NCBI GenBank assembly: GCA_021234155.1
Contig: JAJEKV010000005.1
Coordinates: 13,013,787-13,077,786, forward strand
Direction of reading: 5' to 3'
Source: Isoetes taiwanensis
Lineage: Eukaryota; Streptophyta; Lycopodiopsida; Isoetales; Isoetaceae
DNA length: 64,000 nt
The position numbers were made by a program, and so were the translations under genes. Positions 16,030-55,979 of the stretch are shown here, one piece after another. How positions within the stretch are numbered: position 1 is the stretch's first letter; the number at the start of each line of letters is the position of its first letter. The notes under the pieces are model-generated. The model searched no databases. It was given only the letters and a program-made list of their open reading frames with translations, and had not been told where the DNA came from.

Positions 16030-16440
16030 GTTGTATAAGTGGTCAAGATGTCAAACATTGCACAAAAGTACTAGCACTTTGTGCACAAGTGTTAAATAAT
16101 TCTACGCTATAAGTGGTGAGGACAAGATGTCAACACTTGTGCACAAGGTGTTAACACTTTGTGCACAAGTGTTAACTACTGTGCTGCGTGTTAAATAACT
16201 TGTATAAGTGGCAAGGGAAAAAAAAAAAACTTCGTGTCCCTTTTTTTATTTTTACAAGGTCAATAATGTCTTGCCAAGGTTCAAGACCTTTGTGCAACTT
16301 GTGTCAAGATGTCAAACCTTGCACAAGGTGTTAACACTTTTTGCACTTTGTGTCAAGATGTCAAACCTTGCACAAGGTGTTAACACTTTGTGCACTTTGT
16401 GGCAAGATGTCAAACCTTGCACTTTGTGTTAACACTTTTA
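16030..16440. repeat. minisatellite, 49-bp core
   Basis: Units starting CAAGATGTCAAACCTTGCAC repeat at about 16,306, 16,355 and 16,404, each followed by GTGTTAACACTTT. Looser copies with TTGTGCACAAGTGTTAA extend back to 16,030. Confidence 0.75.
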
Positions 16441-20333: not shown

Positions 20334-20337
20334 ATTG
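20334..20337. other. target site duplication ATTG (left)
   Basis: ATTG directly precedes the left terminal repeat and is repeated at 32,897-32,900 directly after the right one. Confidence 0.85.
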
Positions 20338-20369
20338 AACCATCATTCAATTAAATTGGGATTATGTCT
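20338..20369. repeat. left terminal inverted repeat (32 bp)
   Basis: Identical, as reverse complement, to 32,865-32,896. The adjacent inner sequence TATTCCAAAATCGCGCC is shared with the right end of the 1,658-bp element (type I end). Confidence 0.9.
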
Positions 20370-20699
20370 ATTCCAAAATCGCGCCGTATAAGCCTTTTAT
20401 TGACCATTATATTGAATTAACCACACTTTTGCACTGATTTCATTTTCGGGCTAGGAAGATGCATTTTATGTTGAAATGCAAAGGCATCCAAATATTCGGT
20501 GCAAATGACCCATATTATGAAAGAATGTTGGCAATATAAAAAGTAGGAAATTGCTTATTAATTCGTACAATCACCGACGACAACGAAATCTAAACATTGA
20601 AATTGTAGTGTTTTACGAATAAATAACAGCAAGCAAGTTGCTACAAAACGAGATTTTTGGTCAAATCGCGCGTAAGCGCGATTTTATTCAAGATAAATA

Positions 20700-22600
20700 A
20701 CGTATTATAGTGGAACATAAACTTTAAAACTAATCCGAATCATCGCCGACAAAGGCTGCGGCGGTGTCGAGATCCTATCGATCATGAACAAACCATGCTC
20801 GATTCCATATAAGATGGATTACAACATCAAAGGGATCAGGATAGAAGTTTTGACGGATTCATAGCAACGACATCAAGCCAGTCCCGAAGTTCTATTTCTA
20901 GCTCAGCGGCACTCGGCAGAGAGGTGCATGGTTCATCTGGCGAGGGTAATAGAATGTGCCATAATAACAAGCGGATGGAGCCCGGGCCAGATGGTTTGCC
21001 AATTTCATGCATACCTATTTATAGACACCTAAATTATTGATGGTATATACATACAAATTATTGCAAGTATAGCAAAACCATACACATAATATAAAAGAAC
21101 AATACGCATACGTAACCAATAATGCCGATATAAGAACACAATAAATATTCGAAAGAGGTTGGTGTAAAGTATATTTCATATTCAAAACTTTTGGAAAGTG
21201 TATTTCTGTATACATATATATCAAAAAGTTCCCTTTCTAGAACGATCTTTCTCTAGGTCCCCTGTCAATTTCCTGTCCGATTAAGTTTAAGGGTATAGTG
21301 TTTGTATCTCTTCTAACCGTTTTTCCTGTAGCTATTTCAGTGCAAGATCGCGACAAAAAGGGGGAAGTCATCTTTGTCAAAATCTTCGGGATGATAGGAT
21401 GGTGGATTTAGTGATCTGTGGATCGATTGAAGCAACACTTCAAGGCGTCATCATCAACTATAATGATGTCTTCCTTCTCCGAATGCCCAAGTCATCCATC
21501 ATGTCGCTCAAGCATTTCACAAATATTTTTTACTGTAGGATCCTTCGGGTTATTGAATGACTTACATTTGCTCTCGATCCCAAGCGGATGCCCAATCTCT
21601 ATGTAACTTCGGGAACTACTCTCAAAACTTCTGTATATTTCTATTCTCCATCGACGACCAAATTAAATGAAATAAAGTGAAAGCTTGGTCTAACATCTCC
21701 TTCGAATCTGGCCCGCGGATATACCCATTTCAGACTGTCTCAAATGGTTTTACGTGCATACCATGATAAAGGGAATTGTGCTTTAGGTAACGTTTTGCGA
21801 GAGCACTCCATTCAAATCGAACAGGAATTTTCGAGGAAACTGGATTAGGGTGCGTAATAATAAAGTACACACTTGTGAGACAAGGAAAAAGAAAATTGAA
21901 ATCGCCGGGGCGGCGATTTTCAATTTCGTTTTTGAAGAATTGAAATCGCTACCTGGCGCCGATTTTCATTTCGTTTGAATAACATACCTTTACGGTTCTG
22001 TTCAACATCCGCAATGATGAGCTTACTCTCGGCGTCTTGAGGGAAGTGAAGCCACATCACTTAGTGTTTGAACTAAGGTTGATACTTCATTACTCTTTAT
22101 GCTAACCCGACTTGAAGCTTTCCGAATCCTTTGTATCATCTAGGATTTTGTCTTCCGTTTGCGTTACCTACATCCACTTCCGATTCGGATTTTCCAATGT
22201 GATTGGAATGATAGGCACGCTCTCGGCCGCATAGTTAACTGCCGCTTGTCGATATTCTTCTTTATGTGCTCCATATGCTTTCTCATTTCTTCCGCTCTGC
22301 AGCCCGGATCTGCCAGTAATTAGGACTTAGATTTTGGAAGCTTTATTTTTGCACTACCTAGCGGACCCTAGGTGCCACCTCTAGCACTTTCTCGTAAAAA
22401 AATATCAAGGAAGTCCTTGGCTTGACCATCGAGACCACACTTTGGCATTTTCTAGCTAGCTTGAGCTTCCCTACCGACATAACCTCAGACATGAAACTCC
22501 CAACACGTAGACTCTAAAGGGCGAAGGCTTCAATCGAAAACTTCGAAGGGCCAAAGAAAACCCGTACTTATTCAGCCTCCCTTATCTTGTCAGTAGCTCA
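20700..22600 (-). pseudogene. possible downstream coding segments of the cargo gene
   Basis: Only fragmentary reverse-strand coding character is visible, for example a segment with EEMRKHMEHIKKNIDKRQL near 22,300-22,240. Stops are frequent, and two palindromes interrupt it near 21,900 and 21,950. I cannot say whether it continues the same gene. Confidence 0.25.
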
Positions 22601-22615
22601 TACTTGATTGGTGAA

Positions 22616-25600
22616 TTAAGGACGAGTGGTCGACCAGCTTTTTTCTTCTTCCTCTTCCTCTTCGTCCTCTTCAAAGTCCACATCCACATCTGCAGTCTCC
22701 TTCCCTTTGTCTTCAAACATTGGATTCGACATAAAAATATTTTTCAATAGGGGTTCATCTGGCCGATAGCAATCGCCAAGCAATCTTCTCACCTTCCGGT
22801 TTCCCCTTGAGTCTTTCATATTTTTATCATCCATAATGGCTATCATAAGGACTAGCACATGTGAGATCTTACTTCGGTACTAAACTCACTATCTTTGTTT
22901 TCATCTATCATTCTTGCTTGCCCCATCACTTTAATGCATTCGAGATCATTTGCAGCGGCTAGTGCATAGGCGTGGGACATGTCAAGTGGCAAACTATCCA
23001 CGATAGTATAATGCATCTCGGGCCGTAAAACCACTGCATGTGTTGAAGAAGGTGCTGTAATCATCTTGTGTCCATCTCGTGCCACGGCTATCAAGAACAA
23101 ATAGAGTGATGTCGGTTGGCCCTTCACCCACGTCTGGTATGGCACACTTATAACCAGTGGACACCTTATAGAAAAAAGGAGACTCGTCTACTGCCGTCTT
23201 CTTCACCAAAGCAACTTTTCTTTTTAGGTCGGGGCCTTAACTTTCGTGTGAATCCCCTTAAGAGTTGCCACATTCTTCGCCTTTTGCTGCTTCACAAAAT
23301 CTTTTGACCAAAATACATATTTCTTAATGTCATCATTAGATACGTTGTACTTTTGCATTAAGCCTATCTCTGATAACATGAAGTCTCCTGAGAGCCTTTG
23401 CAGTTCTTCGCCAACAGCTTTTTTCAGGACTTTCATATTTTTTATCGATTCGCATGCATCTTCGAAAGATGTCATGTGCTTTGCTGCAGACGTTTTCTTG
23501 TAGATAACTTCCTTTCTGATGCAACTATCTAGAACGAGATTAATTACGCATCATCCAATCCTTGTGCCTTTCTCATTTACGTGATACCTATATAAAAAAT
23601 AGACGATTATCTTGGGAAACCACGCCATAACGAATCGGCAACTTCTTTTTCGAATAAGCGCCCCAAAATTCGTTCCATTTTTCCCATACCTAGTCGAAGA
23701 AAAAAACAATCTTGCGGGGCATCCTTTGGCACTTTGTTTGCTCTTACGAGCCGACTTTGTGCATCCCTTTTTTTCTTCTTTGATCTAGTGCCCTTGGTCT
23801 TGTCTCAGTATTATGGTTTGGCACGGTGTCCTTTCTAGTAATTTGAATTCGCACTCTTAGATTGCCCTTGTCCGTTTCGGCATTGGTTTTCCATATTCGA
23901 TCCATTGTTACTGGCGTGCGCATAAGCTGATTTCCACATATGGATTTGCAAAATATGGGCCGTTAGATAAAAAAAATAGACAGTAGTGAAAGTAACAATA
24001 TAAAAACGCGCCAGCGACGCGTTTTCGTAACTTCCGGATTTACAAAGCGGCGCTGGGCGCCATTCCTTCATGATGAAGAATTCGCGCGCACGCCGTTTCT
24101 TGTAAATCCGTCAAAACAAATAACAACATAAAACGCGCCAGGCACGTTTTTGCTAATCACGTATTTACAACGCGGCGCGCGATTTCTTCATGTATGCCAT
24201 ATGAAGAAATGGCGCCAGCGCCGCATTCTTTGTAAATAACATTGATTAGCTTAAAACGCTTGGGCTGATTTGGAACGCTTATGTGTGGGAAAATAAAATA
24301 CCTTTTGTATAGGAATGTCTTTCCCATGTCATTCAAGATGCTACCGATTTCGCTAATTTCGCCGCTATTGTTGAACCGAGGAACCGGCAATTTCTCGAAT
24401 CAATCTATATAGAATAAGCGATTTCCGATTTTTGTGCTTGATTGATCAAAACCTTCCAGCCTCCCTTTGAATGCTGGCCATCTATTATCATGAAGTGAAT
24501 ATCGAGGTTGCCAAGTAAATCTTCAAGTTTATTCCATATCAACACCTTCTTCGTCTTCATATAATCAAAAGGCACCACATCTGCGGCATTGGCTTTTGCC
24601 CCGGTTTTCTATCATCTTCGTTGACTATTTCCATTTGTGTGCCGCTTGTCGTATCTTCTGGCCGACAAACATAGCCTTCGTGGACACGAAAAGCCCGCCG
24701 ACATGGATAGGGACGCGTGAAGCTAAGGCCCAAAGTGGATACTTGTCAAAGATATTTCTTGAGTTTGCTCATGGCCTCTAACCGTCTCGCCTTTGTCATC
24801 ATCACTAGTCATATCTGTAATGCCTAGAACGTCCGGTGTTTCCACGGCTCTAGAACTTGCATCTTCCTTCTCTTTTTAAAGCTTGTAGGTACAGACTAGC
24901 TGACGGCCTTGTACTAATTGCTCTTCTCACAGCTGAGAGACCTTCACATATTTTTTTTGGTGTCAATGGATCACCACCTGACCAGCCAAATTTGAAGAGG
25001 TTATCTGCGCGCTCATCCGTTCTTAGGGCAGTCTCTTTAAAGGAACTGGCACTGCAGTAATTTAACTTCTTCAATACTTTTTTATTTTTTTGACCCGCTT
25101 CAAGTAATACGGAATAGTAAGAATCGTCCTGTTCTTCGCATGTGATTAGAATACCTTGTTTCTTCATTTGATCTGTTTCCTTAACTCTAGACATGAAAAT
25201 CAGATCTGTCTTTCCACTAGTCTTGAAGATCTCCACATAGCCCTCTGGTAGATCTTCTTCTGGACATGGAGGCTCTACCCGAGCCTTCATTATTCCGGTC
25301 GTATCTTCAATGGTCACAACGTGTGCCAAATCAAGAATCGATACATCTTCCTCCGTTTTGTTTTTTTTCATGCAGATGTCCCTCGGACTCCTCAAGCAGC
25401 TTTGCTTTTTTTTTCACATTTTAGAAGATCCCCAAAGTTACAATCATGTGGTGAGTAATGAAATCGCTACCGAAGCTGCTTTTGATAGACTTTACTTTCA
25501 AAAACATAAATTGTACATAGGAAAAGTAGCAGAGACAACAAAAAACAATCATATCAGAGACGTTCTACATTATAAATCGCGCCGAGCGCGTTTTTAAGAG

Positions 25601-26090
25601 GGGCCCTACAGACGCTCTATATTATAAGAGACATACTAGGCTACAAAAAAGACTTGTCAAAAGAACTGGAGAATACAGAACAAAAGTATAAACAAACAAG
25701 TCTGCAAGAAACTATAATTAAACGGTCTACATTATACAAAATGGAGAATACAAAACAAAAAACACAGAGTACAGGAGAAGATTATAACAAAAACACACAA
25801 AACAAGGTAGTAAAAGCAGTAGAAATGACACAGAAACAATATAAAAGGTAGAAAATACACAGAGACACGCATACACAGAAAACACAGGTAGAAAAACATC
25901 CTAAAAACCTAACAAAAAAAAGGGACACAGAAATCAATTACAAAACAAAAACAGATCAATTACCTGAGGCGCTTGTTGGATTTGTGCTTTCTGCTTGTTC
26001 AGCAGCCTCCAGGCTTGGGATTTGTGCTTTAGTAAGCCCACCTCTACCAGCCGCCGGCCGCCGCCGATCCTCTAGACGCCATAGAACGCG
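22616..26090 (-). pseudogene. large multi-exon cargo gene of the 12.56-kb element, DGQH motif
   Basis: Coding-like segments read right to left. A possible first exon (Arg/Ala-rich, then KAQIPSLEAAEQAE) lies at 26,090-25,965 and ends at a GTAATT donor. A 181-residue frame follows at 25,395-24,850. A segment with PLWALASRVPIHVGGL lies near 24,700. VVPFDYMKTKK followed by FMIIDGQHSKGGWK lies at 24,590-24,450, and VPRFNNSGEISEIGS at 24,390-24,240. A palindrome cluster lies next, then frames at 23,475-23,224, 23,209-22,860 and 22,858-22,616, the last ending in an acidic Glu/Asp tract. DGQH followed by a Trp/Lys helix recalls ParB/DndB-type (DGQHR) folds, but this is tentative. Frame changes between segments could be introns or decay. 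Function unknown. It faces away from the transposase. Confidence 0.5.
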
Positions 26091-26314
26091 CAAGTGCGGA
26101 TAATATGAGACTGGGGTTTTGGTTTAAACTTATATGTATGCGTTCATAATCTAGGTCGCCGATTTTTACAACCGTGAATTCAAATTAAGGCCCTTTTAAA
26201 TTTATATCGCTTTAATTAACCGCCTGGCCCCGCTCATTTACAAATTTAAATTGTGTTTTTTTTTTTAGTGCAATTTCAAGATAACAATTAATTATTAATT
26301 TCAAGAAACGATAT

Positions 26315-26590
26315 GTGGCAATCTACTACCACCTAATCGGCCACCACCTACTATCGAGCCCAAGATCATTCCTACTATCGAGCCTAAGAACAATCGACTA
26401 TCAGAGCGCCCAAGATCCGTCTACAACGCCTTCAATCCCATTCGATCGAGCCGCCTTCAATCCCATTCGATGTCTGCTGAACTATGGTGAGTGTGATTCC
26501 ATTCCGAATGCATTCTCTTGTCTGTTGGGTGTCAAAACCCACAGACGCAATGTAAAGTGGTTGGGGGCAGGGCCCAACCAAGCAATATAG
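26315..26590 (+). pseudogene. unidentified forward frame upstream of DUF8039 exon
   Basis: An open frame of 91 codons with no recognisable domain, ending shortly before the exon at 26,712. It could be a 5' exon or leader of the same forward gene. The CTAT microsatellite at about 26,650-26,667 separates them. Confidence 0.2.
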
Positions 26591-26711
26591 TGTGGTGTGT
26601 GGTCACATGTCCAGTTGGATGTTGCCTAGTGGCGTGACGTTAAAATACTATCTATCTATCTATCTTTTTTTCGTCCTCTATTTTTTCCAATGCATTCTGG
26701 TTCTTTATCAG

Positions 26712-26955
26712 TGTCGGAGAAGAATGCTATCTTTTAACAGCAAACTTGAAGCGCCGAGTAGGCTTATGCAAAATCGAAGATCTGAATCTAAGTTCTATGT
26801 GTCATGGTGTTCCTCTTGGAAACAGTTTCTGTAAGATTTCCATTATAAACTGCAATTATAAAGATGAGGCTCTTCCAAGAAGACATCCCGGTGGCGATAC
26901 AGTTGGTGAAAGTGTGGGCACATTTGTAGCATGGCCAAAAGAACGTCTGAAAAAG
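26712..26955 (+). pseudogene. exon encoding a DUF8039-like domain
   Basis: After a TTTATCAG acceptor the forward frame reads VGEECYLLTANL and KRRVGLCKIEDL, then HGVPLGNSFCKISI, then DEALPRRHPGGDT and finally VGTFVAWPKERLKK before a GTATTT donor. This order (G-x-C-x-L, VA/VG-G, HG-x-PLG, an acid plus P, GTFVAWP) is the pattern of DUF8039, a plant domain found in DNA-transposon proteins, often with an Ulp1 protease. The exon is open and well preserved compared with its surroundings. No Ulp1 part is visible next to it. It lies on the opposite strand from the large cargo gene. Confidence 0.6.
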
Positions 26956-27027
26956 GTATTTATATTACGATATTAAAAAAAAAATGAATATATCATAATA
27001 TCTGCGTGATGTTGTGAATTTTGTATT

Positions 27028-27129
27028 CTTTGATGCTCTTTAGCCAGTCATATCAACCCCATGAAACTACACATTAATGAAAATATGTAGTTTCTTGGGG
27101 TTGGTCATACTGGCTAGAGGGCATCAAAG
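27028..27129. repeat. 102-bp long hairpin (foldback)
   Basis: Arms of about 45 bp pair almost perfectly. The left arm contains CTTTAGCCAGTCATATCAAC, and the right arm contains TTGGTCATACTGGCTAGAGG. The loop is about 8 bases, near TAATGAAA. It could be a tiny foldback MITE or a small-RNA-type hairpin. It lies inside the 12.56-kb element between the DUF8039 exon and a palindrome. Confidence 0.8.
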
Positions 27130-27292
27130 GATTCAATGTTTTCGACATTGCATATAAAAAAACATAATAAACTAATGACATAAAAGTATAGTGCAAAATT
27201 GCGCCAGCGCCGAAGTTTGTATTCATATTCCAAAAAATGTATGTACATTTCTTCTTCTGCAAAAATGCGCCAGGCGCGAATTCTTTCTATCT

Positions 27293-27800
27293 CTACAATA
27301 TGTCACATAGGCCCACTTCATCGGCCCAATACCGCAAAAAGTCCCACCTGAACCACTCGATATGACAGATCCTCATCTTCCCCGGGCGAATGTCGAAGTC
27401 TCCAAAAAGAGTGTTGTATCGATCCTTGATACTATAAATCAAATCCTCGCATTTATTTGTTGGCATGAGCCTTACTAAGAGCATGAGGAGCCGTGATATG
27501 TCCAGAGATGCGATGGAAGTGTTCCCATGGCCCCGATACAGATCGTCTAATGGATTCTCCAACTCTCTTTGAACGCTTTGAACAAAGACAATCAAGTAAT
27601 ATCTTGTATTGTGGTCCAGAGTTGATGGTCGCCCGTGGGAAGTGTATTTGAACTAGAACCAGCCAGTGTATTTGAACTAGGATCAGCCAGTGTCCATGCA
27701 TAAGGAAAATCCATGGCACTAGAACGAGAGAAATTAAGTAATTAGCAAATGATATATTACTCTCCCCATAAAACGATTCTGAACATACATAATTCAAAAC
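27293..27800 (-). pseudogene. unidentified cargo exon of the 12.56-kb element
   Basis: The reverse-strand frame at 27,595-27,293 (100 residues) reads like a folded protein (ELENPLDDLYRG, MLLVRLMPTNKCEDLI, then HIEWFRWDFLRYWADEVG). An upstream segment at 27,720-27,600 contains a repeated SSNTL phrase from a short direct repeat. I do not recognise it. GC-rich palindromes lie on both sides (27,261 and 27,796), as in the other cargo segments, so it may be part of the same long gene. Confidence 0.35.
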
Positions 27801-28124
27801 GCCGCCAGCGCTGTTGTTTTGTTTTTTTTTTCACAGATCTATTTCACTCGCGCCTGGCGCGATTTGTATAGAACCGTATGAAATAGAAAAGCCAAACTAA
27901 AAACGCGCCTGGCGCGCTTTGATTAACCTAGTGGAAAATCGGAACCCAAAAATAGAAATGTGCCAAGCGCGATTTCTCCCATTCTAACATATTATTCTAA
28001 CAGAATGCATAATGCTGAATGCATATTAGTTCATTGTTTTAGTTCATTATTTAGAGCAGATAGAGGAAGAGCTAGTGAAATAGAATAAGAGCAGATACAG
28101 CAGAATCATATAAGCAAGATCATA

Positions 28125-28265
28125 GAGCAGATAGATCATACAGCAGATAGATCATAGATCATAGAGCAGATAGATCATAGATCATAGATCATAGATCATA
28201 GATCATAGATCATAGATCAGAGATCATAGATCATAGAGCAAGATCATAGAGCAGATAGATCATAG
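28125..28265. repeat. AGATCAT simple repeat
   Basis: Head-to-tail copies of ATAGATC/ATCATAG-type units with a few GCAG interruptions. Looser copies run from about 28,080 to 28,390. Confidence 0.85.
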
Positions 28266-28499
28266 ATCATTATTTACTTCATTATTTTAGATCATTAATT
28301 ACAACAGATAGAGGAAGAGCTAGTGAAATACAATAAGAGCAGATCATATAGGCAAGATCACAGAACAAGATCATAGAGCAGGATCTATATATGAAGGTGG
28401 TAGGGCAGTTTAGGACTGATGCATGTAAAAGTAAATAACATGCTTTATGTAAAATAACTACTTTATGTAAATAACAGGAAATACTAACCTATTTGTGTT

Positions 28500-29110
28500 C
28501 TGTACCCGAGAATTGAGCTTTGCCTTTGAGCCGAAACCAAAGAATCGAAAAACAAAGTTGATTTGATTCGAGAAGCCAATAGCAGATGATTTGAGCCTTA
28601 AGAAGCCGAGAAAAAGCAATAGCAGCTAATTTGGAAACCGAGAAGCCGAGAAGCTTTAACACAAAAAACAAAAAACCACAAAACTTTGTTATTCAAAGCC
28701 AGAGAGATTGTAGAGAGCCGAAAAGCCAAAAAAGCCAGAGACATTGTATAGAGCCTACAAACCTTTGAGCCGAAAACCCTAAAGCAGATGATTGTAGAAG
28801 CCGAAAAGCTCGAAAAGCCGAGTTTAAAGCATATAGAAGCCGAATTTAAAGCAGATAGAAGCCGAAAAGTCGAGATTGATGCAGATAGAAGCCGAGAAGC
28901 AGATAGAAGTCGAGATTGAAGCAGATTGAAGCAGATTGAAGCGCCTAGATTGCATGCAGAGATTGAAGCGCCGAGATTGCATGCAGAAGCGCCTAGAAGC
29001 GCCTGGAATGCCTGGAATTGGAAGTGGAAGCGGAAGCGCTGAATTAGCCTCGAATTTAAAAGTTCGAAGTGAGAGAAAGCAGTTCGAAAACGAATGCTAA
29101 CTTCAAATAA
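28500..29110. repeat. purine-rich cryptic repeat (GCCGAR / GCAGAT)
   Basis: Dominated by short repeats of AGAAGCCGA, GATTGAAGCAGA and AGCGCCTAGA. It produces a spurious 180-codon reverse frame of Ser/Ala/Leu/Phe repeats, which I do not call a gene. Some units near 28,940-29,010 carry the GCGCC core. Confidence 0.7.
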
Positions 29111-29189
29111 TAACTGCCTTAAAAATTTCGTACCGCGCAATCATCACTGCCGCGAAAATTTATTACAAAGATTTTTTGTTTTAAGGACC

Positions 29190-29480
29190 GTGACTTTAAA
29201 AGTTTAAAAGTTATGAGTTAATAGTTAAGTTAGTTGTTAATAGTTATAAGTTAATAGTTAATAGTTAAGTTATAAGTTATAAGTTAATAGTTTAAAAGTT
29301 ATAAGTTAGTAGTTAAGTTAGTGACCTTAAAACTAACCTTAAAACTTAGTTCTAACCTTAAAACTTTTAACCTACAATAACTTTCCAACCTTAAAATTTC
29401 TAACCTATAATAACCTATAATAAACTTCTTAACCTTAAAACTGCTAACCTATAATTAATAACCTTAAAAGTTGTTGCTAA
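29190..29480. repeat. low-complexity TTAAGTTATAAG tract
   Basis: About 130 bp of AGTTATAAGTTAATAG-type repeats are followed by the complementary-like ACCTTAAAAC repeats, so the tract could fold back on itself. Confidence 0.7.
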
Positions 29481-29668
29481 GGTTATTATAGGATAAAAGT
29501 TTAGAAGGTTATAAGTAGAGGGTTTTATTTATATATAATCCCATTATATAAATAGAATGATCAAATACAATAAGACATATATGAGGCTTTCATTTATGAA
29601 CATGTTAGTGAGAGGTTATTTGGATATGCTAACTTACTATATGTTTTTATGCATTCTAGGTCAATGGC

Positions 29669-32500
29669 ATGCAAAATGCTAAAAAAAAAGCCCCCAATGA
29701 TGCTGATCAATGCAAGGAAAAATTCCCAAATGATGAAGATGATGCCCAAGGAAAGGAAAAGACTGCAAATGATGTTGATGATGGCAAAGAAAAGGAGAAG
29801 ACTCCAAATGATGTTGATGATGGCAAAGGAAAGGAAAAGACCACAAATGAAAAGGATGATGCCAAAGGAAAGGAAATTGTACTTTATACTCGGGTCGATT
29901 GGAAAAACAAAAAGGTCAAGATCCTGCATGCATGCAACAGAGAGGCAGTAGGAGAAGGGATTATTGTTCTAGCAGATCCTATCAATGCGTTGAATGATGA
30001 AAGATTAGGGGAGGACAAAGTTAGGTGTGGCAATCTCAAAATTATATGACAATTGGAAGGAAAAGGGTTCAGCAAACAAGAATGCCTAGCTTGTGTGAAG
30101 CAACTAGAGGTTCCAACTATTGTTGCATGGCCTAGGGAAGATTCAACCTGAGGGGAACTACACGTTTCCTATAGATGTAGAACCATTGTCAACAATGTTC
30201 ACACAGTGTAGCAAGAGGCCACTTCCAACTTTCAAACATTATCCCACCAAAAGATGCAAGTCAGATTATGATTGTTCTCCTGAAGCTATGATGAAGATTA
30301 GAGGAGGTGAATGTTGTTGGGCTTCTTGTATTAAAATATTCACAATAGAGGAGTTGGTGGGAGCAAGAGCTACATATCAGGAACATAAGTGTGATAGCAG
30401 GAGGAATTTCATGTACACCATATTTGGCTATGCAATTCAGGATGAAAGATCAAAGTAGAAAAGATTCCCATTGAATGGAAAGTGGATATGTTCAAAAGCA
30501 TGGATGGCTATACATGGAATTCCAACCTCTTCTTGGCACAACTGGCAAAAGAGACATGAAAATGGTAGTAAAATTGCATTGCATGGGAACACTGGCCTGG
30601 TAAGGCCTACCTCAAGAACTATAGCTGCAAAGGAAATATTTGGAAGATATGTGGATTTCAATGCAGAAAACATGCCACATAAGAGTAAGAAGGATGAACA
30701 GGGTAGAGTTATTGTTGAAAAGAGATTGCCATCCCATTGTACCCAGAAGAGCATATTAGAGGAAATAAATGCATTGCTTTGGGAACTTGGAGTGGCCTCT
30801 ATATCCCAGCCCAGTTTTAGTAGGCTATGGAATAAGCATTTCAAGCATGTGACCATAGCAACTTCAAACAACTTTGCCAAGTGCAATTTATGTGCTAAGT
30901 TGAGGGAGACACTAGATAAGACTGTGCAACCAAGTCTAAGGGCAAAGATAAGGGAACATATGAAGGACCATATGACAGATCAACTATCATGTAGATCAAC
31001 TTATTGGATGTGGAGGACCTTATCTGCAATGGAACCTAATAACTATCTATGTATTATACATGATAAAATGGACCAACAGAAGACTTGTCCAAGTACATTC
31101 CTAAGTCATGTGGAAGATCATACCCTTTGCAGATTTCAATGACTGGGGCAATATTGCATGGGCAATCTCAGACCTATTATGGCCATTTCAGTTTAGAGCT
31201 GTGGAGTGATGGTCCAGATTTTCACATTGGGAGTATTATGAGGTGTTTAAGAAACTATGAGAAGGGTTACAATGGTCACCTGTGAGGATCCTACAAACTA
31301 GTCGGGCACTACATAGTGCATTGTTGGATGGAACCCCTAATAGTATTGAAAAGTTTAGCAAGGCAAGATTTAGGAGGAATGGACCTAATGAACATGTTGG
31401 AGCTTCAACATCTCGCGGCTAAACCTCGAGATCTGCCCGTAAAGCTCCTCTTGCAACTAGATAATTGTCTTTGGTCAAAATAAGAACAGTGGATGTTTTC
31501 TTTCCTATCCTACTTAATGTATTTGTGGGTATTTTTGAAAGAGTCAATTTGGGGTTCCTAATGCCCGGACATACTCATGAGGATGTGGATGCATTGTTTG
31601 GAAAATATAGTCATGTATTGAGACAACAGACAGGTTACCAACTTTTCCTGTGCTATTGGAAATATTTCATGGATGTACAAATCCATCTCCTATAGGATCT
31701 ATCATAGAAGAAGTGCCCGATTGGAAGAGTTTTGTGGATGGTTATGCTCTCGACATGGAAGGTCATTCTAGACCTCTTCAATTCACTTTTTGGGTGAGAG
31801 AAGGGATTCCAATCATGCAATGGAAAATGAGACCTTCAGAGGAGAAGTGGAGAGGTGGGGCAGAAATTTGGTAATGTGGATGCAAATGGCAAGCCTATGA
31901 TACCTCCCTGGTCAACCAAAAGCTCTAAAAACCAACCCAAGAAGTCAAGCAATTGGGATTGACTAAGGATGGCATCAATGACTACATCAAGCATTGGCAA
32001 ACTAATTCAGATGAGACTAATCGTGCATTGATAGATTATTGGAAGAAGGTGATCAACTTGTTGGATGAGGTAGACACATCCTCATAAGAGCTGAAAGAAG
32101 GGTGGTTCCCTAAAAGTAAGTGGAAAACATTAGTCGGGCTTGATTTTAAGATGATGATACCATTAGTAGCATTGTGAAGGCATATGCTCCTCCTCAACTG
32201 GGATAAACACTATGTTGGTCCTAAGAAGGATAGGCCAAAATATTTAGGCATGGATTGTTATGAACCTTCTAACCGACGTGGAGTGCCACCAATTTGTAGT
32301 AGTAAAACCAGCAGATCTAGAGACCTATCCAGTGTGGTTGGGATACACTATCTCGGATATTTGCAAAGAAGAAGGTGATGTTAACTTCAATAAGGTGCGC
32401 GTGGAATGGTGGTGTCCAAGACATCGGTTGAGTAATGTCACCGATAAAGAAAAGATATTCAGATCGTTGGACAAAGAGGTGGAGGAGAAATCCAAGTGAT
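29669..32500 (+). pseudogene. DUF7869-like transposase remnant, copy 2 (inside the 12.56-kb element)
   Basis: The transposase candidate of the big element. The N-terminal frame 29,669-30,049 begins with about five acidic/Lys repeats of roughly 12 residues (ND-DD-KGKEK), then YTRVDWKNKKVKIL. The frame 30,120-30,458 has GGECCWASCIKIF. The frame 30,471-31,142 has an HGN segment, CNLCAKLRETLDK (zinc-type Cys pair) and IIHDKMDQQKT (first acidic site, about 31,060-31,080). Another frame continues with YGHF near 31,170, LQLDN near 31,452 and PGHTHEDVDALFG near 31,567. The C-terminus has GIPIMQ, a YWKKV block near 32,040 and FVVVK, PVWLGY and VEWWCPR at 32,290-32,415. At least three frame changes and some stops make it inactive. 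It reads towards the right TIR, about 400 bp away. Confidence 0.75.
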
Positions 32501-32864
32501 CCCGATCTTTGGCTAGACATTGAAACCGTGATTAAAACCCGTGGACTCCAAAACTATTCCTAGTAAAACAAATGAGAGTTACAATACCTCGGGATGTAAG
32601 GAATAAGGTTCTCATATCCTTGGGGATGCTAGTGGAAAAATGAAAAACAATTACTATGTATCTTTTCTACAGTTAATAAAAGTTGTGTACTACTTGAGTT
32701 CCATGATATATGATTTTGTAATTTGAAGTTAAGGTGTGAATTTATATTCCCGTGTGTGATTATATGTTAACGTCTATTCTAGTCTAAGGGCAACAAAGTT
32801 ACTAAAAAAGTGAATTTAACAAAGTTACTAAAAAAGTGCAATATAAAATTTATCCCAAAATTAA

Positions 32865-32896
32865 GACATAATCCCAATTTAATTGAATGATGGTTA
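32865..32896. repeat. right terminal inverted repeat (32 bp)
   Basis: A perfect inverted copy of 20,338-20,369, followed directly by ATTG (32,897-32,900). The inner neighbour (read outward-in as TAATTTTGGG) matches the left end of the 1,658-bp element (type II end). Confidence 0.9.
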
Positions 32897-32900
32897 TTGC

Positions 32901-38449: not shown

Positions 38450-39800
38450 TCTTAGCCTGAGTTGTACTCTCAGCTCGCGAGTTTAAACTATTCTCAACTC
38501 GCGAGTCGAGGAAGCCTCTACTGAGAATCAAATCTCCCCTCCAGTCTGGGTAGCTGGTTTGTCGAGGTGGCCTAATCTTGACTCGCAAGTCGAGAAAGCT
38601 AACACCCAGACTAGATCCCTTGACCCTCCCTTGTCCGGACTTCTCCAGTATCCTCTCGACTCGCGGGTCGAGAATGCCGCCATCCAGACTGAATCCCTTC
38701 ACTTCAGGACTGACGGAGGAGAGGGACTCAGTCTTGGTAGTCGCATAGTCGACATCTGAATGCCAACTCGAGACTGCATTCTTGATTCGCGAGTCGAGAT
38801 ATGCCTCCATCCACACTATCTCTAGCAATCCCGACGGGTTAGTCGAGACTGCCTATTCCATCCACGCTAACATCTCTAGCAATCCCGACGGGCTAGTCGA
38901 GACTGCCTATTCTCGGCTCAGAGTCGAAGGTGCCTCTACCCAGACTGGATTCCTATCCTTTGAATCCTTGAAGGGGAGGGGCCTAGACTGATTAGAGGCA
39001 TCTGTGATTTGCGACTTGAATCGAGATATGCCTCAGTCCACCCTAACCCCTCTAGCGGTCCCGACTGTCTAGTCGAGACTGCCTATTCTTGATTTGCGAG
39101 TCGAAGGTGTTTCTACCCAGACAGGACCCCTCTCCTCTGAATCCTCGAAGGGGAGGGGCCTGGTCTAAAATGGAAGCATCTGCGATTTATGACTTAAGAC
39201 TGCATTCTTGACTCGCGAGTCGAGATAAAGCCTCAATCCACACTAACCCTTCTAGCAATCCCAACTAGCTAGTCGAGACTGCCTATTCTCGGACTGGTGA
39301 GTCGAAGGTGCCTCTATCCAGACTGGATCCCTCTCCTCCGAATCCTTGAAGGCGAGGGGCCTGATTTGGATAGAGGCATCTGCGATTTGCGACTCGAGGT
39401 TGCATTCTCGGCTCGCGAGTCAAGATATGCCTCAATCCATACTAAACCCTCTAACAGACCCGTTTGCGAGTCGAGCTATGCCTCAATCCACACTAACCCC
39501 TCTAACAATCCTGACTGGCTAGTCGAGACTGCTACTTCTCGACTCGTGAGTCGAAAGTGGCTCTATCCAGAATGGATCCCTTTAATTTGAATCCCTGAAG
39601 GGGAGGGGCCTAGCCTGGGTGAAGGCATCTGCCATTTGCAATTGAGACTACATTCTCGACTCATGAGTTGAGATATACTTCAATCCACACTAACCCCTCT
39701 AGCAATCCCGACTGGCTAGTTGAGATTGTCTATTTTCAATTTGCGAGTTGAAGGTGCCTCCACCCACATCTGCGATTTGCGAGTCGAGACTGTATTCTCG
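38450..39800. repeat. tandem array, about 205-bp unit, with GACTCGCGAGTC palindromes
   Basis: Roughly five to six diverged units. Each has a palindrome close to CTCGACTCGCGAGTCGAG, then ATATGCCTCAATCCACACTA, GCAATCCCGACTGGCTAGTC and a second palindrome. GGTGCCTCTACCCAGACTGG, a GAAGGGGAGGGGCCT stretch and CATCTGCGATTTGCGA follow. Unit starts lie near 38,785, 39,010, 39,210, 39,410 (with a 55-bp partial unit inserted) and 39,660; the part before 38,780 is more diverged. Single palindrome copies also occur at about 43,735-43,755 and 44,370-44,395. CpG sites are far denser here than in the surroundings. Confidence 0.85.
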
Positions 39801-39819
39801 ATAGCAAGATAACACAAAA

Positions 39820-40610
39820 TCAAACTCTATCCTCTATCTAGGAAATCAAACTCTGCCCTCTATCTAAGAAATCAAACTCTACCTTACCTTCCTTCCTTCC
39901 TTCCATCCTTCCTTCTATCTAAGAAATCAAACACTCCCCTCTGTTTAAAAAATTGAATTCTCTCTTGTATCTTTCGTATGGTAAGCTAGAAAACAAGAAA
40001 TTGAACCTGCCCTCCGTCTAAACTAGCAAGACCTGTAGTTCTTCGACGTTCTCTTTGATTGCTTGCTCCCTTACTGAGCATCTCTCGACGTAGAGAGTTT
40101 CTCGACCCTAAAGTATGCTCAACAAGAAAACAAGCAATTAAACAAGGCCTCCAACAGTTCTATATATTCAATATTTCGAGCAAGTCTACCATTTGGCTTT
40201 TAGGAAACAAGCATTCTAACAGTCTAAGAAATCGAAGAAATCGAACTCTCCCCTCTATCTAAGAAATTTAACTCTACCCTCTATCTAAGAAATCAAACTC
40301 TCTCCTCTGTCTAAGAAATCGAACTCTCCCCTGTATCTTTCGTATGGTAAGTAGAAAACAAGAAATCAAACTTGCCCTCGATCTAACTAGCAACACCTGC
40401 AGCTATTCGACATTCTCTTCGATTACTTTCTCCTTTGTTGAGCATCTCTCAACGTAGAGAGTTTCTCGACGCTGAAATATACTCAACAAGGAAGCAAACA
40501 ATCGAACGAACCCTTGAACACTTCTACATATTCAACATTTCTAGTAGGTCTACCATTTGGCAATCTAACACGTTCTAGGAAACAAGCATTCTAACATTCA
40601 TATCTAGGTA
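39820..40610. repeat. duplicated about 350-bp block with 23-bp minisatellite
   Basis: A block of AAATCAAACTCTACCCTCTA-type units, a GTATCTTTCGTATGGTAAG stretch, CTCGACGTAGAGAGTTTCTC and GGAAACAAGCATTCTAAC occurs twice, at about 39,900-40,225 and 40,240-40,605. CCTTC repeats lie at 39,885-39,915. No coding signal. Confidence 0.8.
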
Positions 40611-44749: not shown

Positions 44750-45300
44750 GTTCAAGCCATTATATCTATAAATGCTTTTTACAAATTTTTGGTTGGAAAG
44801 AAAAAGATTTTAATCAAAAATAAGATTTTTATGAGAGGTTTTTTTCGCCAAGCCATTGTATGCAATATCTAAGTCACTAAAAATAGATAAAGAAGAGACG
44901 CGCTAGAGAGAGAATGTCAATTGTTCCTTCGCTCATAACTTGAGCTATAGAGATCAGATTCAGATGATCTTGGGCTCTTTGGAAAGCTTATATAGATTTT
45001 TATTGGCACATGATTTGTCCTAGATCTATCAAGATAATACCTGCTTTTTGTACTTTTCACTCCGGATACCTTTTTGCAAAGTGCATACCATGCAGAGTTG
45101 ATGGTAATATAGTTTTTATCATAATTTTTGAATCAGGACTCTATTTTGAGTGTTTTTTCTTGCATTGGAAAGCTCTCTCTAGGATATTTATGATGATGTA
45201 TAATATGCTCATGTTTGGTTAAGTTTTTTTGGGTCAAAACGGCAAATTTCCAGGCAGATTTGATAGGGTTTCAAACCCCACTAGTTGTTGAAACATGATT
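44750..45300. repeat. dispersed about 500-bp repeat, copy A
   Basis: Similar over its length to 49,960-50,460 in the same orientation. Shared phrases include TTTACAAATTTTT, AATCAAAAATAAGATTTTTA, GAGAGAATGTCAATTGTT, CTCATAACTTGAGCTA and CAGATTCAGATGATCTT. Outside it, TTTGTTTTGGTGTGTTATGG (45,380) has an inverted partner, CCATAATACACCAAAA, at 45,495-45,511. A TTTTGTTTTGGTGTGTTATA also follows copy B at 50,595, so the full element may be longer. Type unknown. Confidence 0.7.
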
Positions 45301-48559: not shown

Positions 48560-50990
48560 GATATACTTTAAGAGGAAAATGTAGCAACAGTGACCAATTT
48601 CTTCTAGTCTCAACAGGTGTCTAGAATAAGCACTTTTCTTTTTTTATGGTGCTGTGGTACAGCTGAAAGAAAGCTTTTAAGTGTCGTGCGAGCTGGCTTT
48701 GTGATTGATTGGGTGAAGCTTCATGTTTGATTGCTCACCCAATTGTATATGCCTGTATAAGAAGGATGTTTTGTATATTGGATGATCCATTTTTTCTTAA
48801 ATCCCAATAGATTATATGGAGCATGTACTTAAGAGATTGAATTTTCACTGTCCAGTTAATGACATCATGAACAAGAGGAAGTACTAAACGAGTTGTGCAA
48901 ATCGTCAATGGCTTTGGTTAGGAGCTTGGATCCTTGAAAAAGTAGCTCGTAGATCAGCATGTGCCACAAGAGAAGGCAAAACTTACTGGTTTTTATTTCA
49001 TTAGGGCCAAAAAACCCCTTTTCTTTAATTGATTGGTTGTCTCCTGAACCTGTTGATATTGATATTGAGGACCATAGATGATGGAAGCTTTATCAATGTC
49101 ATAGTTGGCCGTTATATTTTTTGGTGGTGCAATTTTAGTCTGCCACTTACAACAGTTTACCAGTCTGTTACCAGTTGAACATGCATATAATTGTTGACGA
49201 GTTTGACGTGACATTCTCAACTATGGTATTATTGGAGTAAGTTGTGTGATCCAGCAATGGGCTGCGCCTGGGTGCCATTAGGGTGAAATCACACTTGCGC
49301 CCAAGCCCAAACCAATAAAAAATTGAAAAGGCACCTAGAGCTAGTCCAAACCCAAGATTTGAATTTATCAGACAAATTTATTTTGTGTCTGTGTAGCAAA
49401 AAATAATGCATGCCAAAACTTTAGATGGGCAATATACTGTCCAAAACTTTAATGCATGGCAAAGGCCACGTCATACTTTAGGCTTTAATGGCAAATGTTT
49501 GGATTTGGGCAGAAGTGTGATTCCAACCTTAGTCGCAGCATTCACGGGGCAAATAGGGGTAAGCTGTAAACAATTTTTTAGTAACAAGATGCAGCATGTG
49601 GCAATAAGACATGGATGCAAAATATAATGGATTCCTTCCCTACATATCATTTCTCAATAATAAGTGCAAGAAATTAATTGCAATGGCCTTTTCACTTTTC
49701 AGATTGACTTGATGCAAAAGCCCTAGCTTCTTGCTTTGTGATGGATTTCTTAGTAAGAATTTGAAGAGTGACTACATTCTAATGCTCAAGTAGTCTAAAA
49801 CTTATTTATGGTATCATGAAGATGGAGAATTGACAACTTTTAATGTTCATTTTATATCTCATAACATTGGAATCAAAATTCAAATGGGATGAAGAACAAA
49901 CTTGCATTTAGATAGATGTACATACATGACAATGTCGCAAAGGGGAGATTACGTTTGCAAATGCTTTTTACAAATTTTTTGTTGAAAAAAAATGTTTTAA
50001 TCAAAAATAAGATTTTTATCAGAGGTACTTTTTTAGCAAACAATTGTATATAATATCTAATTGACTAAAAATAGATAAAGAGGAGGCACTAGAGAGAGAA
50101 TGTCAATTGTTTCTACGCTCATAACTTGAGCTACAGAGGTCAGATTCAGATGATCTTAGGCTCTTTGGAAAGCTTATGTAGAGAGCTTGGTATATGATTT
50201 GACTCAGATCTATCAAGATAGATACCTGCTTTTTATACTTTTCAATTCAGATATCGCTTTGCAAAGTGCATGCCATGGAGATTTGATGGTAATATGGTTT
50301 TTATCATAATTTTTGAATTCAGACTTCCTTTTGACTGTTTTTTATTGCGTTGGAAAGCTCTCTCTGGGTTCTTTCTAAATGCTCATATTTGGTTAAGTTT
50401 TCTGGGCTAAAATATAGTAAATTTCTGGGCGGATTTGGTAGGACTTCACATCCCACTAGTTGATTCTCTGCCCAAATAATTATTCTGTTCATGTCCTTTG
50501 TCTTGCATCATTGTAGTGCAGTAAGCTTTTATGAAAATATTGAAGAGATAATGTTATCGTGGCCGCATTTGGTATCTGAAAAAAAAAATTGAAACCTTTT
50601 GTTTTGGTGTGTTATAGGAGATGACATTTTCTTAGTTTGAAAAAAAAAATAAAAACTCAAAAAACATTGGTAAGAGTAAAATGTTGTGATTAGTAGGATA
50701 GGAGGAATTTAGAAATAGAAATCTTTGATGAGGTCCTCATTGCATTTGAGATAAATATTTCTTAAGAAAAAAGCTATTGGCAATGAGGTAGATATTTGTT
50801 AAGAAAAACAGTTAAAGAGCAAATAATTTGAATCATCATAATATCTCCACCCCCTACATGCATTCATAGTGTTGACCGTATATGCATAACGGGGACCATC
50901 TGCTTTAAACCCATAACATGGGATTAATCACTTCATCCATGTATTCTTATAATGCTAACCATTCCTGAATATTCCAGCCCATATTCTCAA
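48560..50990. other. no supportable gene; dispersed repeat copy B
   Basis: AT-rich, apart from repeat copy B at 49,960-50,460. Short frames near 48,993-49,627 show no domain. Confidence 0.5.
49960..50460. repeat. dispersed about 500-bp repeat, copy B
   Basis: Partner of 44,750-45,300, same orientation. Shared landmarks include GAGAGAATGTCAATTGTT at about 50,093, GCTCTTTGGAAAGCTTAT at about 50,160 and TTTGCAAAGTGCAT at about 50,258. Small indels separate the copies, so both are old. Confidence 0.7.
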
Positions 50991-52906: not shown

Positions 52907-52910
52907 CATG
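52907..52910. other. target site duplication CATG
   Basis: CATG before the left end is repeated at 54,569-54,572 after the right end. The unoccupied counterpart in unit 2 (near 55,168) reads CCCATGGTAATTC with a single CATG. Confidence 0.9.
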
Positions 52911-53112
52911 AACCATCATTCAATTATTTTAAGAATATGTCTTAATTTTGAGAGTTTTTTTTCCGCGCAGCGTCCGTCGCTTTTTGGCATTTTTTCCTTC
53001 CGTCCCTTTTTTTCTCTTCTCGTCCGTGCCCATTATTTTCTTGAAAACTTTCCCCCTAATTTATTCACTTCCTTTTCTTTTTCCTCACACTCCCCTGCAT
53101 CCCGCTCTCATC

Positions 53113-53225
53113 CAGCGGCGCCTTCGGGCTATGGCGCTGTTTCTTCATGCTATGGCGCCGTTTCTTCCGGCTATGGCGCCTGTTCTGCAGAATATGGCCT
53201 CTACACGCTATGGCGCCTGCTTCGA
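53113..53225. repeat. 21-bp minisatellite GCTATGGCGCC
   Basis: GCTATGGCGC(C) starts near 53,129, 53,150, 53,171 and 53,208, with a diverged copy near 53,191, each followed by GTTTCTTC-like sequence. Forward frames read GYGAVSS-type repeats, but nothing else supports translation. Confidence 0.8.
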
Positions 53226-53493
53226 CCATTTCGACTGAGGCAAGGAAGGAGATACATTCCAGCTGAGTAAGACTTCCCATTCTGGTTGACCTAAGGTACA
53301 ACTTATTTCGGTATGGAGGTAATAAAGGAGATGGTCCAAATGTTGTCTACTGGCTTGTTTAGCCATAGATTCGTAGCTTAGTTTCTTTCTGAGGCTTGTG
53401 CAGCTCTTATCTATTTCGGATGCAGGATACAGAAGCATCTCTATCCTATTTCGGTCCAAAAGACAGAGCAGTTCTTAGCTATTTTGGATGCAA

Positions 53494-53609
53494 GGAAATC
53501 GATTATTGTGCATGCCTTTTCTTTGGATTTTATCTACAAGATTTATTGCTAGGGAATTGATTATTGTGCATGCCTTTTCTTTGGGTCTTATCTACAAGAT
53601 TTATTGCTG
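53494..53609. repeat. 58-bp tandem duplication
   Basis: GATTATTGTGCATGCCTTTT and ATCTACAAGATTTATTGCT occur twice, starting near 53,501 and 53,559, inside the 1,658-bp element. Confidence 0.85.
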
Positions 53610-53971
53610 CTTTCACTTCTAGGTTATTGAATTTGGCTTATTAGGCATCGAAACACCAAGGAGCTTCTATTTTTTATAGAACCCTGGAGTTATTTGGAGT
53701 TTTTGATGGGCATAACAGGACTGAGGCCGCTGTGAATTCCTTTTACAACAGGTTTCTTCAAAAGTTAAATTGCTGGTTGGAGTAGATTATCATGGAATCA
53801 TGACAAAATGTTCTCTGTGGTTGCTAAATTGTGACAAAATGTTCTTCGTGGTCTGCTAAATTGTAAACTGCTATTGCTTTAGTTCTTTGGAAGGTCTTGG
53901 TAGAGTTATTAAACTAGAGCACATGCCCAGTATGTTGGCTGACAATTAAATGAAAATCAGCTGTTGCAACT

Positions 53972-54090
53972 ATGGAAACTAGCGAGAAACATCTGCAGCC
54001 AAAGATATTGGAGCCAAGCTTAGTGAAGAAGCTGCCCAACCGTGCAGATGAGGATAACTGGAGATGCAGTATGAACTTTATTTGTTGTCC
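53972..54090 (+). pseudogene. possible captured exon inside the 1,658-bp element
   Basis: A short forward frame (METSEKHLQPKILEPSLVKK, then PNRADEDNW) has a coding-like composition and is followed by AT-rich non-coding sequence. It may be a host gene piece captured by the element. Too short to identify. Confidence 0.25.
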
Positions 54091-55979
54091 ACATCATGTG
54101 AAATTGCGCCACTTTTGTCACAATTTTCTATTTCAAAGCATTTTAGAGGACGTCTTCTTTATTAATTGTATAGATATCCAGCTCTATTTGCCTAAAATAT
54201 CATAACTCCAAATTTAAGATTGTTAAAATTATGTGAATATTTGGAGTAATTTTATTTTTACATATTGTTATATATGCTTGATTTCGATAAGTAAATGATT
54301 ATTTCTTATGTGATGTCAATAAAAAAAATTGTTATTTCAAGTATATTTATTGTTTTAATGCTATACGATCTATCGATGTAATTTCAAGAAAACAAGTCCT
54401 TTTTGTGCCTTATTTAAAGTAAATACAAATAATTAACCAAATATGCAACATACACTACGCTTTCTAAATACAAAAAATAGAATAAGAAAACACTAGATGC
54501 TCTAAAAATAACGCTTATTTGGCGCGATTTTGGAATAGACATAATCCCAAAATAATTGAATGATGGTTCATGGTAATTCACAAAATGTGCAGCTCGATTC
54601 AAGAGGTTCTTGAACGGAGAATGCTGCCTCTGGTTCAGCTGAATACACAACAAGGTCGGGATGGGATGCATCTATGGCAGATGAAATGAAAGACTCAGGC
54701 AAGGACACAGCAGGCTCGTCCATGCCAGCAACTGGTTCCTGATCAATCTCCATGATTTCTGCAACTATACAACAAACAAAAGCATGAAAACAAAGAAACT
54801 GAATTGTACAACCAACACCCAAGCAAGTTCATCAGCCAACAGCCATGGTACGATCACCCTTGTGCACAGGGATATAATCTACTCCAGGCTCAAGTATCAC
54901 GACATCAGGGCTATCTGCACTATAAGAAGCATCACGTATATCCTTAAAATTATTGTCTTCCTCATCAACAGGAATAGCATCATCCCAATAACGTCTGGAC
55001 CCAGGCAATGACTAGGGCAGCAGCACTCTCCAGGCAGCCCGAACACGATGCTCATGGATATGAGCCGTGTTTGAAGGGATGATCTAGGAACTAGACAAGG
55101 TAAATTTTCCAGATCGAATCATTCTAGCCAAGGTATACAATAGACTAGCAGTCAACCTACGATTCCCATGGTAATTCATAAAATGTGCAACTCAATTCAA
55201 GAGGTTCTTATTGTCAAGCACAACAAGGTTCTTCGTATCACTAGCTCCCCATCTCAAATAGAGATCTTTTCCTTTCTCAATAGCAGCTTCACTCACATTA
55301 CGGAGATGACAAACATAATGGACTTTCCCAACATCCTTTATGCAGTACCCAACCATGCCTCCAAAACAATGAAGGCGACTGTTTTTAAGGGCTTTGCATA
55401 CCAAAATCACACCCGGAGCTTTGAAACCCAATTGAAATCCTTTTTTATAGCATCGCTCATGGCCCTGGGGCTCTTGAACCGAGCTCTAAAAACAGCCTGG
55501 CAGTGCAAGTGATCAACACTTGCATCACGCTCCATGGCTACAGCTCCAGCCAAACACCTTCGATTGCAAAAGCCAACAAGAGCATCATAAAAACTCGTGG
55601 GCACATCTTGCCCAGACAAACCCAAGGTGACACTGACATCTATGGCACTCCAATCCTGACCAAGAGAACAACCAGCAGCATGTACCCCAGTCCGAGGCTC
55701 TCCAGAAGAGGAGCCGATTTTCAAAGAACTCAAAGAAGGAGGCACAGACCAAGTAACACCCTTCCCATTCCTCGCTGCTCTCGTCAAAGACATCACAAAC
55801 AAAATCAAAGCAGCAAACCCGGCTTACCTGTGACAGAAATCTGCTGACACAAAACTGGAGATGGCCTTCCAAACAACCAAGACGACCCCTCTTTATTCTG
55901 TGGCCCAAAACAGAAACAATGACAGAGCCAAGACACATGCCCGGCGCCACCATCGCCATTTCCGCTATGCCCATCTCCA

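Follow-up and report, generated by a model that had tools for sequence, protein, structure and literature searches.

We analysed a stretch of 64,000 nucleotides from the lycophyte Isoetes taiwanensis (GenBank assembly GCA_021234155.1, contig JAJEKV010000005.1; C1056:13013787-13077786 in our genome search), referred to here as the window. It harbors a transposon with terminal inverted repeats (TIRs) and a 4-bp target-site duplication (TSD), which carries a DUF7869 transposase gene beside its right end and a second gene on the other strand beside its left end. The features of the element are as follows.

20334..20337, no strand assigned: left copy of the TSD, ATTG
20338..32895, no strand assigned: whole element, 12,558 bp, delimited by its TIRs and TSD and aligned end to end with 10 full-length relatives of 12,282-12,482 bp
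20338..20369, plus strand: left TIR, 32 bp, starting AACCATCATTC
21240..21830, minus strand: NIF/FCP1-like phosphatase stretch, bounds approximate; represented in the window by broken fragments alone, likened to it by eye
22070..25413, minus strand: second (accessory) gene, read opposite to the transposase and toward the left end; bounds approximate
29900..32499, plus strand: gene of the transposase (DUF7869, PF25273), read in several frames toward the right end; bounds approximate
32864..32895, minus strand: right TIR, 32 bp, the perfect complement of the left TIR
32896..32899, no strand assigned: right copy of the TSD, ATTG

The TIRs pair perfectly over exactly 32 bp, complementarity is lost from base 33, and the element terminates in AACC...GGTT. 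The sequence-only reading of this locus had placed perfect 32-bp inverted ends at 20,338-20,369 and 32,865-32,896. The repeats themselves and the left position stand, and the right end lies one base lower, at 32864-32895. The ATTG that it had seen on either side was read at both borders.

To count the ends, we searched the whole assembly (1,658,258,908 bases in 1110 contigs). The 32-mer occurred 3427 times with up to three mismatches (1718 forward, 1709 reverse) in these 1.658 Gb, against 0 occurrences of the same pattern reversed (read backwards) in the same assembly at the same tolerance, which rules out a chance repeat as the origin of the ends. Pairing was analysed on 100 listed end places, all of them exact matches. 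Among these were 25 inward-facing neighbor pairs, 17 of which spanned 12,038-13,954 bp, and there were no outward-facing or same-strand neighbors at 11-14.5 kb. Ten of the 17 long pairs were retrieved whole; they measured 12,282-12,482 bp and all ten had identical 4-bp flanks (ATGA, GATT, AGTT, CAAA, TATA, CCTC, AACT, CATT, GATT, and TAGA). Flanks also matched in five of six further inward pairs (CTTT, ATAA, TTAC, TTCT, and AAAA). The check named by the sequence-only reading, equal flanks at paired inward ends, therefore came out in its favor in 15 of the 16 pairs tested, from the 25 listed. Because the duplicated 4 bp differ in sequence between copies, the target has no fixed sequence. A crude extrapolation from the 34 of 100 listed ends in pairs at 11-14.5 kb to all ends gives about 580 full-length copies. 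The 30 retrieved ends L001-L030, sorted by eye, fell into two subterminal types inside the common 32 bp, the left near ATTCCAAAATCG and the right near TAATTTTGG, with variants within each, pointing to several subfamilies with a common end.

A shorter sibling with the same ends lies in the window, together with its paralogous empty site.

52907..52910, no strand assigned: left copy of the sibling TSD, CATG
52911..54568, no strand assigned: sibling element, 1658 bp, whose ends differ from the 32-mer at 5 and 2 positions
54569..54572, no strand assigned: right copy of the sibling TSD, CATG
55167..55170, no strand assigned: lone CATG in the empty site, with ungapped alignment across the junction

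The sibling interrupts one copy of a duplicated stretch, and the other copy, from 55160 onward, has no sibling. When the flanks of the sibling are joined with a single CATG, they align without gaps through the junction to 55160 onward. This empty site shows that elements with this type of end insert with a 4-bp duplication. The earlier proposal of a TIR transposon with a 4-bp TSD was thus borne out by many copies with matching flanks and by the empty site of the sibling. None of the four sibling open reading frames (ORFs) scanned contained a transposase domain, and the sibling looks non-autonomous. Its frame at 53645-53785 reads LELFGVFDGHN, in which FGVFDGHN presumably resembles a PP2C phosphatase motif; Pfam and PDB searches gave no match for it.

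The transposase gene is spread over frames at 30108-30458, 30459-31142, 31067-31285, 31286-31483, 31465-31695, 31611-31874, 31929-32087, and 32248-32499. PF25273 matched the frame 31465-31695 with an E-value of 4.4e-11 and 43.2 bits, above the Pfam curated cut-off of 26, and three adjacent fragments with 6.9e-05, 0.0024, and 0.048. It gave no match in the frames 31929-32087 and 32248-32499, nor, up to an E-value of 1, any in the frames 30108-30458 and 30459-31142. The last of these, the N-terminal frame of 227 aa, matched five database proteins (best 5.2e-50), and all three of the five that were aligned cover the region of the first aspartate listed below. PF25273 was also found in ORFs of two relatives (2.1e-06 and 3.6e-13), and with 50 bits in the copy L031/L032. 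The stretch from 29.8 to 32.9 kb is the best conserved part among the copies. An alignment of 46 DUF7869 proteins (A2; 2 from this genome and 44 database relatives) contains three conserved aspartates that we presume to be catalytic.

31062..31064, plus strand: codon of the first D presumed catalytic; the motif IIHDKMD can be read in all 11 copies, and D41 is kept in all 40 ungapped rows of A2
31460..31462, plus strand: codon of the second D presumed catalytic; the motif LQLDN can be read in all 11 copies, and D121 is kept in all 46 rows
31588..31590, plus strand: codon of the third D presumed catalytic; the motif HTHEDVD can be read in all 11 copies, and D163 is kept in all 46 rows

A genome search with 204 aa of a relative returned 9196 candidates, and the 150 that were scored had 100-73% identity. 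These 150 included frames of up to 807 aa without a stop in the match; the 807-aa match was 83% identical and is known from its transposase match alone. Relatives with DUF7869 occur in Riccia, Adiantum, Branchiostoma, Antedon, Mytilus, and Clytia (liverwort, fern, lancelet, crinoid, bivalves, and hydrozoan), among the 120 listed of 143 related proteins. These share with the element the domain and the D-D-D motifs and are known as proteins alone. A genome search for DUF7869 itself gave 9902 first-look candidates, with frames of up to 987 aa among 150 scored. In the fern Adiantum nelumboides, a protein of 527 aa is annotated with DUF7869 together with an integrase core (PF00665).

The second gene separates the copies. 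The 11 copies form two subfamilies, A (the window element, L031, L037, and L039) and B (the other seven), which are 94-96% identical at the transposase end and only 62-66% identical at 21.9-25.8 kb. The edge of this divergence is sharp, near 25.8-25.9 kb, so that a block has been exchanged or replaced. We compared the majority sequences of A and B by the ratio of nonsynonymous to synonymous change (dN/dS). In five frames at 22-25.4 kb, dN/dS was 0.09 (bootstrap 0.05-0.15), 0.10, 0.14, 0.14, and 0.21, the first two frames largely overlapping, and for the 0.09 stretch the three controls, two in wrong frames and one on the opposite strand, gave 1.18, 1.50, and 1.99. With only codons away from CG/CHG sites, the ratio was 0.07-0.15 in the four longest frames and 0.07 in the best stretch. 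Of 86 windows, 7 showed codon-phase bias at an uncorrected p<0.01, and all seven lay at 22.5-25.3 kb. We conclude that the second gene is under purifying selection between the subfamilies. Its coding blocks, at about 22.07-22.9, 23.0-23.8, 24.3-24.8, and 24.85-25.41 kb, appear as stretches of low divergence interleaved with intron-like stretches, and the gene probably consists of several exons.

The 332-aa ORF of the second gene matched no protein at E<=0.001 among 5.77 billion; other pieces of the gene were compared with Pfam and partly with PDB only. PDB sequence searches with three element ORFs and one sibling ORF gave no meaningful match. In the corresponding ORF of the copy L045/L046, the phosphatase stretch matched PF03031 with an E-value of 2e-17; it may be either the 3' part of the second gene or a third gene. 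A DGQHS stretch, which we take to resemble ParB-like domains, was tried as such a domain and rejected, Pfam giving only DUF6551 at E 0.17.

The second gene is tied to the transposase and to the ends across the genome. A search with the 332-aa ORF gave 5394 candidates and 122 matches at 100-60% identity, of which 45 had no stop and 17 had both no stop and frames of at least 600 aa. Counted on the best-scored transposase and second-gene matches, 33 of 37 pairs within 40 kb have the arrangement of the window, as do 28 of 31 when each match is paired one-to-one with its nearest partner. An exact family TIR lay 2.7-3.6 kb from the low coordinate in seven of eight second-gene matches (contigs up to C297); for the eighth, the nearest family TIRs were at 9.2 and 11.0 kb. 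Two of the seven are copies already retrieved, leaving an independent count of five of six.

The genes in the copies are interrupted, and the interruptions have a sequence context. At the transposase end of the 11 copies, CG/CHG bases differed by C>T or G>A in 9.2%, transversions in 6.7%, deletions in 3.7%, and insertions in 3.6%, against 0.4, 0.8, 0.8, and 0.3%, respectively, at bases more than 3 away from CG/CHG. The ratio for CHG was 5.9 for substitutions and 4.4 for indels, with control motifs near 1 and GAC/GTC at 1.6 and 2.1; the CHG excess was smaller in the region of the second gene (2.5-2.8 for substitutions, 1.4-2.4 for indels). Cytosine deamination accounts for C>T but not for indels and transversions. 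According to the excerpted genome paper, the assembly was made from Oxford Nanopore (ONT) R9.4.1 reads with miniasm, racon, and pilon (PMC8566536). Three stretches with the same flanks on contig C2 (L001-L003) seem, by eye and uncounted, to differ in the same way. The sequence context suggests that a good part of the frameshifts are probably base-calling errors at methylatable repeats. The sequence-only reading had counted at least three gene remnants. This is half right: our analysis found a transposase, a second gene, and a phosphatase stretch, but the word remnants is doubtful, the breaks being probably in good part such errors. Outside the error-prone sites, substitutions relative to the majority sequence amounted to 1.2-1.8% in the copies at the transposase end, and to 3.5-4.2% in the other stretches measured, which suggests that the family moved fairly recently. 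Differences linked to CG/CHG are what R9 nanopore errors at methylated cytosines should produce, and they may also touch other 'pseudogenes' of this assembly.

Further repeats lie elsewhere in the window. Degenerate direct repeats in units of about 200 bp are clustered at 38766-40561, where TCTAAGAAATC motifs are interspersed, tandem and inverted 49-bp repeats surround GTCAAGATGTCAAACCTTGCACAA at 16042-16439, and the stretches 44897-45189 and 50083-50374, about 5.19 kb apart, form a repeated pair of 85-92% identity.

We interpret the element as a member of a large, high-copy family of cut-and-paste DNA transposons, probably of the Sola superfamily, with a second gene of its own as helper, and put the probability of this reading at roughly 0.78. 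Several results weigh against it. The transposase is fully open in 0 of the 11 copies, and it is not fully open in their majority sequence either. A profile search of PDB with A2 gave only a chance-level ribosomal match. None of the 20 top-scoring DUF7869 loci in the Pfam search of the genome has the family TIR within about 1.5 kb, so the genome has other DUF7869 families and DUF7869 alone does not define this one. In the pair L012/L013 the flanks differ (TATC and TTGG), making 1 of the 16 tested pairs without a TSD. Of the 100 listed exact ends, 66 have no exact partner at 11-14.5 kb; many ends appear single because the listing holds exact matches only and because other elements, such as the 1658-bp sibling, use the same end. 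Four of the 37 pairs of transposase and second gene are arranged otherwise. For the phosphatase stretch, dN/dS was 0.36 (0.23-0.56), overlapping the opposite-strand control of 0.48 (0.31-0.76), and only the shifted frame stands apart, at 1.41.

The Sola superfamily was reportedly described by Bao et al. in 2009. In the excerpted text of a plant transposon review, Sola elements have a DDD transposase, a 4-bp TSD, TIRs of 11-1124 bp, and lengths mostly of 2-9 kb with some above 15 kb, and occur in Physcomitrella (PMC10741241). Excerpts of other papers give Physcomitrella Sola1 and Capsicum (PMC9033089) and report Sola elements in Azolla/Salvinia (PMC6786969) and in Ceratopteris (PMC6890710). Our element agrees with this description in its varied 4-bp TSDs (15 of 16 pairs, the window element, the sibling, and the empty site of the sibling), in TIR length (32 bp), in size (12,558 bp, relatives 12,282-12,482 bp), and in its seed-free plant host; going by the conserved motifs, its transposase would be of the DDD type as well. 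The sequence-only reading knew of no described plant family with this combination, and that claim was not supported: conserved D-D-D with a 4-bp TSD is how the excerpted review describes Sola (PMC10741241). The element differs from Sola in its second, selected gene on the opposite strand, the searched piece of which has no homologue, in its phosphatase stretch, and in reaching 3427 ends (up to three mismatches) in one genome. It probably belongs to Sola, to which it is likened by its described features. The closest precedent found for an extra protein gene is that of the Sola2-Fanzor composites of dictyostelids, which, in the excerpted report, are of Sola type with a 4-bp TSD; their extra gene is Fanzor1 and their TSDs are AT-rich, unlike the different extra gene and varied TSDs here (PMC3627910).

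The main competitor for this assignment is an undescribed superfamily, defined by DUF7869 and 4-bp duplications and separate from Sola. The name DUF7869 was absent from the open-licence papers searched, no protein bears the name Sola among the 120 listed of 143 related ones, and the likeness to Sola is one of described features. We nevertheless hold such a superfamily to be improbable, as the D-D-D motifs, the 4-bp TSD, the TIR and size ranges, and the seed-free host all fit the excerpted description of Sola, and the DUF7869 relatives are spread as widely, from liverwort to hydrozoan, as that review gives for Sola (PMC10741241). According to the same excerpts, Ginger resembles the element in having TIRs and a TSD of 4-6 bp, and differs in its TG...CA ends, TIRs of 40-270 bp, and integrase-like protein (PMC10741241). 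We ruled out Ginger, as the ends here read AACC...GGTT and no integrase domain was matched in any of the ORFs scanned. PiggyBac duplicates TTAA and was likewise ruled out by the varied TSDs. Mutator, CACTA, and hAT are also TIR elements, but the TSD lengths usually attributed to them and to piggyBac speak against them, so that membership in any of these five groups is highly improbable.

A different doubt is whether the family is a dead fossil, with genuine frameshifts and stops and no remaining mobility. The breaks in the 11 copies read and the closed transposase frame of the majority sequence favor it, and the error reading is based on sequence context. Yet the differences, including indels and transversions, concentrate at CG/CHG, the assembly derives from R9.4.1 reads polished with racon and pilon, the same-flank stretches on contig C2 seem to vary likewise by eye, and related matches elsewhere in the genome keep stop-free frames of 600-807 aa. 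We regard a fossil family as unlikely, while giving it appreciable weight. The second gene might instead be a captured host gene, with two diverged host paralogues acquired separately by A and B and selection having acted in the host. The contrast of 94-96% identity at the transposase end with 62-66% at 21.9-25.8 kb, with its sharp edge, would suit this, and NIF phosphatases are ordinary enzymes of cells. But the place and orientation of the gene relative to transposase and TIR are kept (in 28 of the 31 pairs matched one-to-one, with a TIR nearby in 7 of 8 matches), the 122 genomic matches at 100-60% identity include 17 with stop-free frames of at least 600 aa, and the 332-aa piece has no protein homologue. 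A captured host gene is therefore a poor prospect, about on a par with an undescribed superfamily.

In the preferred reading, a two-gene Sola-like transposon, the DDD transposase encoded beside the right end would bind both 32-bp ends and excise the element. A staggered cut of 4 bp would open the target, and joining of the excised element there would leave 4-bp duplications without fixed sequence. The second gene, on the other strand beside the left end, whose 3' end includes or precedes the NIF-type phosphatase stretch, would serve as a helper, that is, a regulator, an anti-silencing factor, or a transposition cofactor. Since it is kept by selection, we see it as a helper of the element and not as a random passenger; selection would have acted for the element, and its retention for the benefit of the element is fairly probable. 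That it affects transcription, by a possible link to a phosphatase of the C-terminal domain (CTD) type, is rather doubtful.

As a tentative wider proposal, to which we give somewhat less than even odds, the Sola-like elements of quillworts may be two-gene transposons that depend on a lineage-restricted helper. This helper, possibly joined to NIF/FCP1, would have been long under strong purifying selection inside the element and would act on transcription or silencing of the element, so that 12-kb elements could multiply to thousands of ends in a methylated genome. The helper module would be traded between subfamilies that have one transposase.

Among the open-licence papers listed, none described a Sola element in a lycophyte or a Sola-like element accompanied by such a gene; the 8 listed of 1481 literature matches held nothing fitting on a NIF phosphatase captured by a transposon. 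The combination of features is already known in kind, from Sola, and the companion gene is the new part. For plant assemblies made from R9 nanopore reads, the base-calling pattern warns that methylated repeats can pass for pseudogenes without being such, misleading both dating and calls of autonomy. If the second gene is a helper, the element would be a new case of a plant transposon keeping an accessory function, and the size, abundance, and clear ends of the transposon make this idea testable.

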